Assembly (NCBI GenBank): GCA_021156245.1
Contig: JAJNBO010000079.1
Coordinates: forward strand, 1-11,479
Source: Ramlibacter sp.
Lineage (GTDB): Bacteria; Pseudomonadota; Gammaproteobacteria; Burkholderiales; Burkholderiaceae_C
DNA length: 11,479 nt
Direction: 5' to 3'
Shown here: positions 1,241-11,479 of the stretch, piece by piece
Position numbering within the stretch: the first letter of the stretch is position 1
Layout: every line of letters starts with the position of its first letter
Made by a program: the position numbers and the translations under genes
Notes under the pieces: model-generated
What the model saw: only the letters and a program-made list of their open reading frames with translations
The model's database searches: none
Told to the model about the DNA's origin: nothing

Positions 1241-1837
1241 TCAGCAACTTCCCTGCGGAAACCAGCCGGAAGGCCAGCCCAGGTTGCGGCGCAGCAGCGC
1301 CCAGTCGAAGCCTTCGCCGGGGTCTTTCTTGCGTCCGGGCGCGATGTGCTCGTGGCCCGCGACGTGCCGGATCGGGTAGTGCTGCGCGAGCGCTGCGCAC
1401 ACGCTGGCGAGCGCCTCGTACTGCTCCTGCTCGAAGGTGCCGCCCTCCAGGCCCTCGAGCTCGATGCCCACGGAATCGTCGTTGCAGTTCGGCCGGCCGC
1501 GCCACGACGATGGCCCCGCGTGCCAGGCCCGCCGGTCGCAGCTGACGAACTGCCACAGCCCGCCGTCGCGCCGGATGTAGAAGTGCGCCGACACCTGCAT
1601 GCCTTCGATGCTCTTGAAATAGGGATGCGCGTCCCAGTCGAGCGCGTTGGTGAACAGGCGCTGCACCTCGTCCCCGCCGTACACGCCCGGGGGCAGGCTG
1701 ATCGAATGCACCACCACCAGGTCCACCGCCGCCGCCTCGGGACGCGGCCCGAAATTGGGCGAGTCCAGCCGCCGCGCGAAGCGGTACCAGCCCGCGTCCC
1801 ACAGGCCGGCGCCGGCGTCAGGGGCTGGTGGGGTCAT
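1241..1837 (-). CDS. ampD: 1,6-anhydro-N-acetylmuramyl-L-alanine amidase AmpD
   Basis: AmpD is a zinc amidase of the cytoplasmic peptidoglycan recycling pathway. It splits the peptide from 1,6-anhydro-MurNAc, and its loss can derepress AmpC beta-lactamase in organisms that carry AmpR. The 198-residue product is one amidase_2 domain with no signal peptide, as expected for AmpD rather than periplasmic AmiD. The predicted zinc ligands are H44 (VVVHSIS), H162 and D172 (GHEHIAPGRKKDPG), with E126 (VGIELEG) and K170 as the catalytic pair. All match E. coli H34, H154, D164, E116 and K162 with constant offsets of 8 to 10. The ATG at 1837 lies inside the last codons of pilR (20-base overlap) and is preceded on the minus strand by GAAGAGG. 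It is probably the last gene of the ypjD-pilSR operon. Confidence 0.95.
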   Translation of the reverse strand: MTPPAPDAGAGLWDAGWYRFARRLDSPNFGPRPEAAAVDLVVVHSISLPPGVYGGDEVQRLFTNALDWDAHPYFKSIEGMQVSAHFYIRRDGGLWQFVSCDRRAWHAGPSSWRGRPNCNDDSVGIELEGLEGGTFEQEQYEALASVCAALAQHYPIRHVAGHEHIAPGRKKDPGEGFDWALLRRNLGWPSGWFPQGSC

Positions 1838-3296
1838 CGGCCTCTTCGCTGCCGGGCGTGGCGATCGCCAGCCGGGCGATGCGATAGCGGATCTGGCGCA
1901 GGCTCAGGCCGAGGCGCTGGGCCGCCGCCGTGCGGTTGAAGTTGGTTTCGCGCAGCGCCTTCACCAGGATCTCGCGCTCCTGCTGGTCCAGGTAGGCCTG
2001 AAGGTCCGAAGGCACGCCCGCGGCAGTCGCGGCCACCGTCGGCGACGCCGCCGCCGCGGCCGCCGGCTCGTTGACTGCGGCGGTGGCGGTGGACGGCGCG
2101 AAGTCCACCTGCAGCTCGCTCCCGTCGCTCAGGGCGAGCGCGCGGTGCAGCAGGTTCTCCAGTTCGCGGACGTTGCCGGTGAGCGGATGCGCCTGCAGCT
2201 GCGCGAGCACCGACGGCGACAGCACCGGGGGCGTGATGCCTGCCTCCTGTCCGATGCGCGCCAGCAACGCCTCGCACAGCATCGGCAGGTCCTCGCGGCG
2301 TTCGCGCAGCGGCGGCACCACGATCTCGATGACGTTGAGCCGGTAGAACAGGTCCTGGCGGAAGCGGCCCGCCTGCACGTCCGCGGCGAGGTCGCGGTGC
2401 GTCGCGCTGACGATGCGCACGTCGACCTCTTCCTCCTGCGTGGAACCGAGCGAGCGCACATGGCGCTCCTGGATGGCGCGCAGCAGCTTGGACTGCATGG
2501 CCAGCGGCAGGTCGCCGATCTCGTCGAGGAACAGCGTGCCGTTGCGCGCTGCCTGGAAATAGCCCTGGCGGTCCGCCGCCGCGCCCGTGTAGGAGCCCTT
2601 CTTGGCGCCGAAGAATTCCGCCTCGAGCAAGGTCTCCGGGATCGCGCTGCAGTTGACGGCCACGAACGGGCCTTCTGCGCGATGGCTGCAGGCATGGATG
2701 GCGCGCGCGGCCAGTTCCTTGCCGGTGCCCGATTCGCCGCGCACCAGCACGGGCGCCATGCTCCGCGCCACCTTCCCGATGCGCTCCTTCACCTGCCGCA
2801 TCGGCGCCGATTCACCGACCAGGCGCTGGAGGGCGCTGCTGCCGGTGCCGCGCTCTGCGCTGGACGCGGCGGGCCGTGCCTGCGCGCCCATCGGGCGCGG
2901 CTTGTCGCTCGCTGCGGTCTCCAGGATCGCGGAGGCCACCACGCTGCGGAACTGCTTGAGGTCCACGGGCTTCGTGAGGTAATCGAAGGCACCCGCCTTC
3001 AGGGCCTCCACCGCGTTCTCCGCGGAGCCGTACGCCGTCATCACCACGCAGCGTTCGCTGCGCTGCTGCGCACCCATGCGTTGCAGCAGGTCGAGGCCGA
3101 GCCCGTCCGGCAGCCGCATGTCGGTGATCACCGCGTCGAACTTCGATTGGCCGAGAAGCTGCCAGGCTTCTTCCAGCGTCCCGGCGGCGTCGACCCGGTA
3201 GCCTTCACGCAGCAGCGTCAGTTCGTACAGGGTGCGCAGGTCCGGTTCGTCGTCGACGACCAGGACATGGGCCGGGGTGGCGGGAGTGGAAGCCAT
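1818..3296 (-). CDS. pilR: Sigma-54 dependent response regulator PilR (type IV pilus regulation)
   Basis: A 492-residue NtrC-family activator. The receiver domain (about 10-122) has the acidic pair D15/D16, phospho-acceptor D59 (VITDMRLPD), T87 and K109. The AAA+ domain (about 158-395) has Walker A GESGTGKE (187-194), the sigma-54 contact loop as GSYTGA (234-239, the GAFTGA motif with Tyr for Phe), Walker B GTLFLDEIGD (253-262) and the RxDLFYRLNV stretch. An Ala-rich linker (about 402-430) leads to a Fis-type helix-turn-helix (about 443-480, ILVKALRETNFNRTAAAQRLG). In PilSR systems the regulator turns on sigma-54 transcription of pilA; no pilA is visible here. The ATG shares one base with the pilS stop (TGATG, 3294-3298). 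No Shine-Dalgarno lies before it, which suggests translational coupling. Its pairing with a six-helix membrane kinase is what separates PilR from other NtrC-like proteins. Confidence 0.9.
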   Translation of the reverse strand: MASTPATPAHVLVVDDEPDLRTLYELTLLREGYRVDAAGTLEEAWQLLGQSKFDAVITDMRLPDGLGLDLLQRMGAQQRSERCVVMTAYGSAENAVEALKAGAFDYLTKPVDLKQFRSVVASAILETAASDKPRPMGAQARPAASSAERGTGSSALQRLVGESAPMRQVKERIGKVARSMAPVLVRGESGTGKELAARAIHACSHRAEGPFVAVNCSAIPETLLEAEFFGAKKGSYTGAAADRQGYFQAARNGTLFLDEIGDLPLAMQSKLLRAIQERHVRSLGSTQEEEVDVRIVSATHRDLAADVQAGRFRQDLFYRLNVIEIVVPPLRERREDLPMLCEALLARIGQEAGITPPVLSPSVLAQLQAHPLTGNVRELENLLHRALALSDGSELQVDFAPSTATAAVNEPAAAAAASPTVAATAAGVPSDLQAYLDQQEREILVKALRETNFNRTAAAQRLGLSLRQIRYRIARLAIATPGSEEADDPTSP

Positions 3297-7638: not shown

Positions 7639-9516
7639 TCATACGGTGGCAGCGGCGTGCTGCCAGGCGCGCCGCAGCACCGCCGGGGAGCGCGACTCCT
7701 CGGGGATCAGCAGGACGCCACGCGAGCGCACCCAGCCGCCCAGCGCCACGTGGCTGGTCACCACCGCCAGCGGCACGGCCAGCAGCAGCGGCAGCGCCAC
7801 CGGCGCCAGCCAGATCAGCGCGCCCAGCTGGATCGCAGCGATGCCGGCGGCATGCAGCACGATCACGGCGGTCATGGGCGCCAGCTGGCGCGCTGCGGCG
7901 GCCCAGCTGAGGCCTTCCGCCTCCCGCGGGGGCGACTTCCATTCCAGCTTCCACCCGGTCAGCGCGACGAGCACGAAGAAGGAGTGCGCGAGCATGCGCA
8001 CGGGCGACTGCAGCAGCGCCACCAGCGTCTCCAGCAGCGCGCTCGCCAGCAGCGCGGGGGTGCCGCCGAAGCCCGCCTGCGCGCGCTTCAGGAGCACGGC
8101 CACCACGCCGAGGACGCGCGGCATGAACAGCATCGCGAGGGTCCAGGCCCACAGGCTGCGCAGTTCCGCGGGCACGGCGTGCCAGTCCGGCGCAATGGCC
8201 GCGCCGCTCATCCACAGCGTGGTGCCGAAGGTGAGGAACGCCAGCCACAGCGGCGCGGACAGGTACGACATGGCGCCGATGGCGAACATCGCGCGGTGCA
8301 CGCGATGCAGTCCGGGCTCGGCGATCAGCCGCGCGTTCTGCAGGTTGCCCTGGCACCAGCGGCGGTCACGCTGCAGCTCCGACAGCAGGTCCGGCGGCTG
8401 CTGCTCGTAGCTGCCGTCCAGGTCCGACACCAGCCAGACATGGAAGCCGGCGCGGCGCATCAGGCGGATGATCGCGTTATGGCCCCAGTAGTGCGACTCG
8501 CCGAGTTGCCAGAACTGCATGCCCAGCGTGAACAGGCGGCCGGTGACCCGCGCCGCGAACTGCTGCGCGCGCGCATGCAGGGTGGCGTGGCCCACGGCCT
8601 GGCTGGCGGTCTGGATGATGCCGGCGCGCGGATGCGCCTCCATCAGCTTCACGAGGGAGGCGATGCAGTCGCCGCTCATCACGCTGTCGGCGTCCAGCAC
8701 CACCATGTAGCGGTAGTCGCGGCCCCAGCGCCGGCAGAAGTCGGCCACGTTGCCGGACTTGCGATGGGTGCGCCGCGCGCGCAGGCGGTAGTACACCTCG
8801 ATCTGCGGCTGGCGCGGGTGGGTGGCGAGCGCGCTGCGCAGCTCCTCCCAGGCGGCGCGTTCGGCCGCGATGATGGCCGGATCGTTGCTGTCGGACAGCA
8901 CGAACACGTCGAAGACCGGGGCGTGCCCCGTGGCCGCGACCGACTCGCAGGTGGCGCGCAGGCCGGCGAACACCGTGGCCACGTCCTCGTTGCAGATCGG
9001 CATGATCAGCGCGGTGCGCGCCTCGGGTGCGATGGAATGGTCGGCCACCGCCCGGGCGGAGATCGCATGCGGGTCGCCGCGCAGGCTCACCCAGAAGCCC
9101 ATGAGCGCCGTGACGAACCCGGTGACCACCCAGGTCGAGAGGATGGCGAACAGCGCGAGCTGGCCCCACTCCAGCAGGTCGTTGCCGTAGTCCGGCTGCG
9201 CCAGCGCGAACAGCCAGGTGGCGATGGCGGTGGACAGCACCGTGAGCATGGCGAAGGTGAAGCGGCGGCGGTCCGCTGCGTCCTGCCACGCTTCGCGCGC
9301 CTCGGCCGAGCGCGAGGCGCGTGCGCCCCCCGGCAGCAGGCGCATCGCGCTGGAGAGCATCGCGGTCAGCACGCTGTTCCAGAAGCCGCGCCAGGGGCGC
9401 GGGGTCATGGAGCCGCGGCGGATGGGGGGCGCGGTGACGGAGTTCGGATGCCGCTCCTCGCGGGGCAGCGCCTGGCGCGGGACGGCGCTCACTCGGGAAG
9501 GATGATGTTGCTCCAT
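7639..9516 (-). CDS. opgH: Glucan biosynthesis glucosyltransferase OpgH (MdoH), with an apparent internal deletion
   Basis: OpgH is the inner-membrane family 2 glycosyltransferase that makes the beta-1,2-glucan backbone of osmoregulated periplasmic glucans from UDP-glucose. In the 625-residue product two helices (about 87-106 and 119-143) precede the catalytic domain: TALIMPICNEDV (168-179), HRKSGNVADFCRRWG (251-265), the DxD motif in MVVLDADS (271-278), FWQLGESHYWGHNAIIR (335-351) and QRDRRWCQGN (382-391, the QxxRW motif). Several more helices follow from about 418 to 594. After GHNAIIR the protein jumps directly to LMRRAGFHVW; canonical OpgH has about 32 further residues here, ending in SHDFVEAA, which supplies the presumed catalytic base. 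The ATG at 9516 overlaps the end of opgG by 28 bases. The frame is open further upstream, but that stretch is antisense-like shadow of opgG. The protein also stops soon after LLIPEES, lacking the long tail of the E. coli protein. Identity is secure; activity is doubtful. Confidence 0.92.
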   Translation of the reverse strand: MEQHHPSRVSAVPRQALPREERHPNSVTAPPIRRGSMTPRPWRGFWNSVLTAMLSSAMRLLPGGARASRSAEAREAWQDAADRRRFTFAMLTVLSTAIATWLFALAQPDYGNDLLEWGQLALFAILSTWVVTGFVTALMGFWVSLRGDPHAISARAVADHSIAPEARTALIMPICNEDVATVFAGLRATCESVAATGHAPVFDVFVLSDSNDPAIIAAERAAWEELRSALATHPRQPQIEVYYRLRARRTHRKSGNVADFCRRWGRDYRYMVVLDADSVMSGDCIASLVKLMEAHPRAGIIQTASQAVGHATLHARAQQFAARVTGRLFTLGMQFWQLGESHYWGHNAIIRLMRRAGFHVWLVSDLDGSYEQQPPDLLSELQRDRRWCQGNLQNARLIAEPGLHRVHRAMFAIGAMSYLSAPLWLAFLTFGTTLWMSGAAIAPDWHAVPAELRSLWAWTLAMLFMPRVLGVVAVLLKRAQAGFGGTPALLASALLETLVALLQSPVRMLAHSFFVLVALTGWKLEWKSPPREAEGLSWAAAARQLAPMTAVIVLHAAGIAAIQLGALIWLAPVALPLLLAVPLAVVTSHVALGGWVRSRGVLLIPEESRSPAVLRRAWQHAAATV

Positions 9517-11054: not shown

Positions 11055-11065
11055 GCGCTCTCTAG

Positions 11066-11081
11066 GGCAAACCCCGTGCCA
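11066..11081 (-). promoter_or_regulatory. Sigma-54 (-24/-12) promoter of opgG
   Basis: The minus strand reads TGGCACG-gggt-TTGCC, which matches the RpoN consensus TGGCACG-N4-TTGCW at every defined base except the last. The -12 C is at 11067, so transcription should begin at about 11055-11054, at or next to the A of the opgG ATG. An unlinked occurrence of this many fixed bases, in the correct strand and place, is very unlikely. A sigma-54 promoter needs an enhancer-binding activator, and the neighbouring gene encodes one of that class. Confidence 0.85.
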
Positions 11082-11100
11082 GCGCCGATTTTCCCTTTCG

Positions 11101-11113
11101 GATCAACAACTTA
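11101..11113 (+). promoter_or_regulatory. IHF-like binding site
   Basis: The plus strand reads GATCAACAACTTA against the IHF core WATCAANNNNTTR; only the first base differs. It lies between the operator and the sigma-54 promoter, where IHF bending typically brings the activator to polymerase. The core is short, so the call depends partly on this position. Confidence 0.55.
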
Positions 11114-11176
11114 CGAGCAACGCGCGGTTGTGGATCCGGGTTTTCCCCTAACTGCCGAGCGAAAAACTGCTCTTCC

Positions 11177-11194
11177 TGTCGCCATTCAGCGACA
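11177..11194. promoter_or_regulatory. GlrR-type upstream activator site (TGTC-N10-GACA)
   Basis: The plus strand reads TGTCGCCATTCAGCGACA, an exact match to the TGTC-N10-GACA operator described for GlrR upstream of glmY in enterobacteria (from memory). The palindrome extends to seven bases per arm (11176-11182 with 11189-11195). Its centre is about 110 bases upstream of the -24/-12 promoter, a normal enhancer distance. Read as RNA it could also form a hairpin that ends the glrR transcript, but the nearest T-run is about nine bases further on, so the operator reading is preferred. Confidence 0.7.
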
Positions 11195-11233
11195 GCCCAT
11201 CCGGGATATTCCGAAAAATACCTTTGAAATCAA

Positions 11234-11479
11234 CTACTTGTCGTCGTCGCCGGGCGGCGACAGGCCGCGCTCGACGCCACTGGACTGGAAGTGTCCGGGC
11301 GTCAGCGCGTGCTTTTGCAGCAGCCGATAGAACTCGGTCCGGTTGCGGTCCGCCAGCCGCGCGGCATCGGCCACGCTGCCGTCCGTGAGCTTGAGCAGGC
11401 CGACCAGGTACTCGCGTTCAAAGCGCTGCTTGGCCTCGGCGTACGTGAGCACCTGCACGGACGGCACGCGCAACGCGCG
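11234..11479 (-). CDS. glrR: C-terminus of a sigma-54 response regulator, GlrR/QseF-like (partial, runs off the right edge)
   Basis: Only the last 81 residues and the TAG stop (11234-11236) are present. They show the Fis-type helix-turn-helix that ends NtrC-family activators: AKQRFEREYLVGLLKLTDGSVADAARLA followed by DRNRTEFYRLLQKHAL. The string RNRTEFYRLL plus the spacing closely resembles E. coli GlrR (QseF), whose C-terminus has GRNRTEFYKLLSRHEL. A Gly/Ser/Asp-rich tail (about 20 residues) follows. The receiver and AAA+ domains lie outside the window, so the assignment to GlrR rather than another family member rests on this domain and on the GlrR-type operator next door. A partner kinase (GlrK) would be expected to the right. 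Confidence 0.8.
   Translation of the reverse strand, partial: RALRVPSVQVLTYAEAKQRFEREYLVGLLKLTDGSVADAARLADRNRTEFYRLLQKHALTPGHFQSSGVERGLSPPGDDDK
11245..11262. promoter_or_regulatory. Possible second GlrR-type site in the 3' end of the glrR-like gene
   Basis: The sequence CGTCGCCGGGCGGCGACA has one mismatch to TGTC-N10-GACA. On the minus strand it shares the longer arms TGTCGC-N6-GCGAC with the first site. The centres are 68 bases apart. It lies in the last codons of the gene (around GLSPPGDD) and in GC-rich coding sequence, so chance is harder to exclude. Confidence 0.35.

Follow-up and report, generated by a model that had tools for sequence, protein, structure and literature searches.

The window, i.e., the whole stretch of 11,479 nucleotides that was analyzed, is one entire contig (C510) of a Ramlibacter draft assembly that is 69% complete. 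On its minus strand the 3′ part of glrR is followed by a control region and by the genes opgG and opgH (Table 1), and in relatives the gene order is glrK-(qseG-like)-glrR-opgG-opgH. The N-terminus of OpgG resembles a signal peptide on visual inspection. The opgH start, which overlaps opgG, was taken from the open frame. Within the opgH frame (8440–8480) about 30 residues that are present in relatives are missing, including a conserved SHDF stretch, and the matches of relatives break near residues 308/309. This gap could be either a true loss or an artefact of the draft assembly.

Table 1. Genes and putative control elements of the opgGH locus. Negative distances are counted from the T of TGGCAC.
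Feature	Sequence	Position	Strand	Remarks
glrR, 3′ end (DNA-binding end)		11479–11234	minus	contig stops inside the gene; 46% identity to E. coli GlrR (65 aa aligned)
Second putative GlrR site	TGTCGCCGCCCGGCGACG	11245–11262	minus	one mismatch; 68 bp from the first site; within the glrR 3′ end
Second IHF-like site	AATCAACTACTTG	11228–11240	minus; consensus reads on plus strand	no mismatch; -159
First putative GlrR site (operator)	TGTCGCTGAATGGCGACA	11194–11177	minus	exact TGTC-N10-GACA; -113
First IHF-like site	GATCAACAACTTA	11101–11113	minus; consensus reads on plus strand	one mismatch to WATCAANNNNTTR; -32
Sigma-54 -24/-12 promoter	TGGCACGGGGTTTGCC	11081–11066	minus	all specified bases of TGGCACG-N4-TTGC
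Predicted transcription start		11054 (A of opgG ATG) or 11055 (preceding C)	minus	deduced from the 27-nt spacing between the A and the T of TGGCAC; same offset as the annotated 5′ end of glmY
opgG (mdoG), 521 aa		11054–9489	minus	MdoG PF04349, 630 bits
opgH (mdoH), glucosyltransferase		9516–7639	minus	NCBIfam MdoH, 971 bits

Control Elements in Front of opgG

A preliminary description of the locus had placed an operator, an IHF-like site and a -24/-12 promoter upstream of opgG, and all three were recovered at the same positions. The promoter sequence TGGCACGGGGTTTGC has the GG at -24 and the GC at -12 with the correct spacing. The present analysis added a second GlrR site and a second IHF site, the spacing of 27 nt, a version of the locus with opgH, the likeness to glmY and the leaderless geometry. 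The second IHF-like site sits between both GlrR palindromes, and the second palindrome is found at about -181 from the T of TGGCAC. Neither a sigma-70 promoter-like site nor a terminator-like site on the minus strand was called between 10950 and 11479. The genome itself encodes sigma-54, as the rpoN gene is present.

Chance expectations were determined for the window. The operator was found once versus 0.09 expected occurrences, and at least one copy was present in 18 of 200 shuffles. The IHF pattern with at most one mismatch occurred twice (0.63 expected). The promoter pattern with at most two mismatches occurred seven times (7.33 expected), and the site at 11066–11081 was the sole exact match. 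These window-only statistics are mildly unusual and too weak to decide. As the chance evidence from the window is modest, the case depends on conservation.

The Activator GlrR and Its Gene Neighborhood

The neighboring gene had been described as the DNA-binding end of a GlrR-like activator, and by sequence comparison it is a GlrR orthologue, an assignment that was obtained with family models as well as with searches using E. coli GlrR. The NCBIfam GlrR model was the best model for both proteins tested (619.2 and 612.1 bits; next models 413 and 415 bits), with both scores below the curated cut-off of 763 bits of NF011695. When E. coli GlrR was used as query, the top match was the opg-adjacent glrR in five of five genomes, which had been selected for carrying the locus. 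Over long matches the GlrR proteins of relatives share about 55–62% of their residues with E. coli GlrR, and short end fragments like that of the window share 46–53%. In the GlrR of locus L061 the Pfam models Response_reg, Sigma54_activat and AAA lid matched and the HTH models did not; the part of GlrR encoded in the window, i.e., the C-terminus alone, gave no Pfam match.

The recognition helix of the window fragment reads RNRTEFYRLL, versus RNRTEFYKLL in E. coli GlrR. Among 159 GlrR C-termini (repeats included) RNRTEFYRLL was found in 137, RNRTDFYALL in three and RNRTEFYKLL in one. Among 12 of the other 18 helices, 11 read RNRTEFYRLM and one KNRTEFYRLL. In relatives a GlrK-like kinase (29–39% identity to GlrK) is encoded upstream, and the order glrK-qseG-glrR was found. 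One open reading frame (ORF) lies between the kinase gene and glrR in L061 and in L103; its product matched QseG weakly in L103 (E = 2.5e-4) and gave no match to QseG in L061.

Conservation of the Elements and Co-occurrence With glrR

Loci with opgG or opgH were gathered at genus, family and order level and from GTDB contigs. In total, 208 loci (L008–L140 and L143–L217) were screened, of which 179 with an opgG/opgH match near the gene start were kept and 29 were dropped; the 179 loci include the window itself and some places that had been fetched twice. A glrR gene was called at 50% identity or more to the GlrR of L061, upstream and on the same strand. A promoter with IHF site was called at a -24/-12 score of at least 13 of 17 (own weights) and an IHF score of at least 7 of 9 at -29 to -33, and a palindrome was called for YGTC-N10-GACA at most 330 bp from the promoter. 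According to these thresholds, 144 of the 179 loci have glrR upstream in the same orientation. The promoter with IHF site was present in 137 of these 144 loci, the palindrome likewise in 137, and both in 130; seven loci each fell below the thresholds for the palindrome and for the promoter with IHF site. Where the fetched stretch contained no glrR (35 loci), seven loci had the promoter with IHF site and six the palindrome.

After near-identical promoters had been removed, 118 promoters remained, 112 of them with glrR upstream. As the preliminary description had envisaged for relatives, operator and -24/-12 element recur before opgG beside glrR, and they do so at fixed spacings. A GlrR site with at most one mismatch was found at -100 to -117 in 92 of the 118 promoters (exact in 71) and at -170 to -189 in 90 (exact in 56), versus 0.6% in shuffled sequences at either place. 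A second IHF match (8–9 of 9) lay within -170 to -130 in 79 promoters, while three shuffled sets gave 0, 2 and 4 of 118. For the first IHF site the promoter was picked on the sigma-54 score alone, with the IHF match ignored. With this choice, a match of at least 8 of 9 was located at -29 to -33 in 86 of 99 distinct opgG loci holding a glrR match, while two loci had it elsewhere and 11 lacked it. Among loci without glrR, 4 of 20 had the match at -29 to -33. The bases GG and TTGC were invariant in all 62 promoters that have an offset of 27 nt to the start codon (see below), whereas the flanking columns vary more.

As controls, 12 opgG/opgH loci were fetched from genomes without a GlrR match (E ≤ 1e-130). 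TGTCN10GACA was present in none of them; three had a -24/-12-like string, none of which was accompanied by a good, correctly placed IHF match. A composite pattern was found in 28 of 200 family genomes versus 1 of 200 for the reversed control, and in 19 of 300 order genomes versus 1 of 300. At class level it was found in 10 of 369 genomes, including the own genome and an already seen family member, and the reversed pattern in 2 of 369. Inspection covered the new class-level loci L219, L221, L222 and L225, among which only L221 had a GlrR match; L218, L220, L223, L224, L226 and L227, as well as the order-level loci L209, L215 and L216, lie outside the inspected set. Of the 28 composite places in the family, 22 adjoin a GlrR orthologue, one precedes opgG without GlrR (G176), one lies beside a less similar activator and four beside neither.

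A GlrR at least 72% identical to that of L061 was encoded in 45 of the 200 family genomes, 43 of which have opgG or opgH in the same orientation within about 1.8 kb downstream; in G176 opgG/opgH are 50 kb away, and in G123 neither gene was found. Such a GlrR was present in 44 of 61 genomes with opgH versus 1 of 138 without opgH, the own genome being omitted because its contig is cut within glrR. Since the genomes and loci are related, these counts are not independent events. The distribution of opgG is patchy, with a match in 22 of 59 genus genomes and 65 of 200 family genomes, and the genus members L028 and L029 have opgG without these elements.

The Sites Stay With the Glucan Genes

Seven of the 28 composite places lie before opgG, 15 before opgH and one before a BON-domain gene, and five are unrelated. 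The promoter precedes opgH where opgG is absent from this place. In 12 of the 15 opgH-type places opgH is the first gene, and in three it comes after a short ORF; of these three, opgH was recognized in the sequence of L164, and its place in L167 and L168 was deduced from coordinates. In these three loci the ATG at +27 opens similar ORFs of 66–67 aa ahead of opgH. That of L164 gave no Pfam match, and the ORFs could possibly encode a leader peptide on the same promoter.

Three genomes with rearrangements are informative. The sites are parted from glrR by an inserted ORF in G147 and by about 0.8 kb of inserted DNA in G207; in both they adjoin opgG/opgH. In G176 a distance of 50 kb separates glrR from the sites, which are located at opgG, and no palindrome was present in the stretch that follows glrR. 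The ORF between glrR and the opgG control region in G147 (L179) encodes an HPFLDGNGR stretch, which we take to be a Fic-like motif.

In other families of the order glrR and the promoter were likewise found. They are followed by opgG in L203 and L204 (ATG at +65), by opgH in L211 and L212 (assigned by sequence likeness; ATG at +27) and by BON-like genes in L205, L206 and L208. Two further arrangements were observed. In L177, which belongs to the 2.5 Mb genome G123, glrR, two palindromes, an IHF site and the promoter are retained. In L182 (G054) two palindromes, an IHF match and an imperfect -24/-12 element come after a GlrR-like gene (57% to the GlrR of L061), as does an ORF that looks globin-like by eye.

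The Distance Between Promoter and Start Codon

In 94 of the 118 non-redundant promoters (81 opgG, 13 opgH) an in-frame ATG or GTG follows the T of TGGCAC at a distance of 26–30 nt, and the offset is exactly 27 in 62 of them; the remaining 24 of the 118 have no in-frame ATG or GTG at +26 to +30. With the usual -24/-12 numbering, an offset of 27 puts the transcription start at the A of the ATG or one base earlier. In the 62 promoters with this offset an A was present in 98% and a TG in 100% at the predicted start. The start region mostly reads GGCATGC (G 0.92, C 0.89, ATG, C 0.69), and T-runs at -10 to -6 are conserved; this context and the T-runs may possibly be extra initiation signals. In the accessible part of a published study the mapped leaderless starts are all AUG, and non-AUG starts are inefficient (PMC3616915), which fits the near-invariant ATG at an offset of 27.

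The region around the start codons was also analyzed for signals of translation initiation. A Shine-Dalgarno-like tetramer preceded 4 of 94 leaderless-type starts versus 2 of 22 candidate starts in 15 leadered-type loci. Over -20 to -5 the leaderless-type starts paired with the anti-Shine-Dalgarno sequence no less strongly than the controls did, and slightly more strongly than the stretch before opgH. The comparison is weakened by the poorly defined start codons of the controls and by leadered relatives that also have no Shine-Dalgarno motifs, and these tests do not favor leaderlessness. The mismatch rates at codon positions 1, 2 and 3 were 0.39, 0.35 and 0.41 after the ATG versus 0.58, 0.60 and 0.59 in the upstream stretch, so the third-position signal is faint.

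Discussion

The layout of the control region resembles that of glmY of E. coli. Both share an orthologous activator, the palindrome and the -24/-12 element. The palindromes of glmY are found at -203, -170 and -107 from the T of TGGCAC, compared with -181 and -113 in the window, and the IHF matches are at nearly equal distances (-150 and -31 versus -159 and -32). The annotated first base of glmY is at +27, as is the A of the opgG ATG. The differences are that glmY has the third palindrome at -203, that its IHF match at -31 is opposite in orientation, and that its product is a small RNA encoded upstream of glrK, whereas a protein-coding operon downstream of glrR is found here. In the 400 bp upstream of E. 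coli opgG neither TGTCN10GACA nor TGGCA-N6-TTGC is present, and there is one loose GG/GC pair. The available text of an earlier study gives TGTCN10GACA as the QseF/GlrR consensus and describes three QseF sites and two IHF sites for Proteus glmY; it also reports that the glmY promoters of E. coli and Proteus overlap a sigma-70 promoter, unlike the window, in which none was called between 10950 and 11479 (PMC8745638).

Similar regulation has been described for other genes. QseF activates glmY and rpoE from sigma-54 promoters (PMC6075780, as far as accessible). The rpoE case is thus likewise an envelope-related gene under sigma-54 and QseF/GlrR, but the target is a sigma factor gene and not glucan synthesis. 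In Dickeya envelope two-component systems, i.e., RcsCDB and EnvZ/OmpR, also act on an OPG gene, yet both the regulators and the gene are others (opgC, succinylation; accessible part of PMC4726272). In other Burkholderiales (L152, L178, L205, L206 and L208) glrR and a GlrR-type sigma-54 promoter occur with a BON-domain or BON-like (OsmY-like) gene, which was identified with Pfam for L152 and L205 (90 printed residues) and by eye for L178, L206 and L208. These loci differ from opgGH in that the target is a small BON-domain protein and no printed ORF of the five loci starts at +26 to +30. In L178 all palindromes have one mismatch, and L207 has the promoter and a BON-like gene and no GlrR match in the stretch.

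It is highly probable that the region represents a sigma-54 promoter of the glmY kind, which would depend on GlrR and IHF and drive opgGH, with the start at the A of the ATG or one base before. The preliminary description had already proposed direct control by GlrR and sigma-54, and we infer this link for both opgG and opgH from the comparison of loci, by which it is well supported. In the proposed mechanism GlrK, together with the QseG-like protein encoded between GlrK and GlrR, would sense the state of the envelope or periplasm, and GlrK would phosphorylate GlrR. With the T of TGGCAC as reference, GlrR would then occupy both palindromes (about -113 and -181), IHF would introduce bends near -159 and -32, and the GlrR ATPase would open the complex that sigma-54 RNA polymerase forms at the -24/-12 element. 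The predicted transcription start is the A of the opgG ATG or the base before it, and the opgGH mRNA from this promoter would thus be leaderless or nearly so.

Several other explanations were considered. It is very improbable that the elements serve a small RNA, i.e., a counterpart of GlmY, and not opgG, although an arrangement of a similar kind drives GlmY in E. coli. The predicted start coincides with the start codon of opgG or opgH and leaves no room for an RNA before the gene, and in the three rearranged genomes the promoter goes with opgG/opgH and not with glrR, and thus a GlmY-like RNA was rejected. There is an equally slight chance that another sigma-54 activator uses the promoter, e.g., the PilR-like regulator at 1818–3296. 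A PilS/PilR-like pair is indeed encoded in the window, and relatives encode several activators of this type; however, the palindrome is identical to the published QseF/GlrR consensus (available text of PMC8745638), its presence tracks glrR, and the helix RNRTEFY is common to E. coli GlrR and not to the PilR-like protein. Control by PilR was discarded for these reasons. That the motifs have arisen by chance, or are an ancestral relic without present function, is strongly disfavored and very improbable. The presence of the operator in 18 of 200 window shuffles speaks for chance, but it is outweighed by the invariance of GG and TTGC amid more variable flanks in the 62 offset-27 promoters, by spacings that are fixed over many genera and by the nearly empty reversed-pattern controls (1 of 200 and 1 of 300 genomes), and this reading was also rejected.

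A different question is whether the message is functionally leaderless. Direct GlrR/sigma-54 control might be true and the mRNA might nevertheless not act as a leaderless one, because OpgG is made mainly from longer transcripts or because the start varies by several bases; this is possible, but rather doubtful. Longer transcripts could originate from another promoter or from read-through of glrR, which could supply a leader, as glrR is co-oriented with opgG and no minus-strand terminator-like site was called between 10950 and 11479. The 24 promoters without a start codon at +26 to +30 and the start codons at +43 to +81 in some loci are also in line with a leader. Against it stand the offset of 26–30 nt, which is kept in 94 of 118 promoters of the opgG and opgH versions, recurs in another family of the order (L211 and L212) and equals the annotated glmY start, and several loci (e.g., L096, L112, L120, L130 and L131) without another start codon in the stretch that was checked. 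On balance it is probable that Burkholderiales have a conserved class of sigma-54-dependent leaderless mRNAs with the A of the opgG/opgH AUG as first base.

The preliminary description had regarded the circuit as undescribed, and in agreement with this a literature search found no account of GlrR or sigma-54 control of opgG or opgH and no description of a link between GlrR/QseF/RpoN and opgG/mdoG, with most subscription papers and supplements being outside its scope. A leaderless sigma-54 message class was also not described in the literature searched, which did not extend to supplements; a sigma-54 promoter may be among published leaderless starts, e.g., the 171 in PMC3616915, which was accessible in part. 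A word search of the main texts of two comparative sigma-54 studies of 2011 and 2025 (PMC3162934, PMC12316311) yielded no glucan gene. The parts are known, and as far as seen the combination and the target are new.

Taken together, a probable direct and testable switch can be named for glucan synthesis in a large group of bacteria. Periplasmic glucans affect the osmotic balance and envelope signaling in many Gram-negative bacteria. One regulator with one promoter layout appears to have three outputs, namely a small RNA in E. coli and, depending on the lineage of Burkholderiales, the glucan genes or BON-domain proteins. If the messages are indeed leaderless, an envelope two-component system would fire a message that is read without a ribosome-binding site, and the state of the envelope, glucan synthesis and a leaderless translation route would be linked. 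The locus, which recurs in many species, also lends itself to asking how leaderless translation can be supplied by a sigma-54 promoter that depends on an activator.
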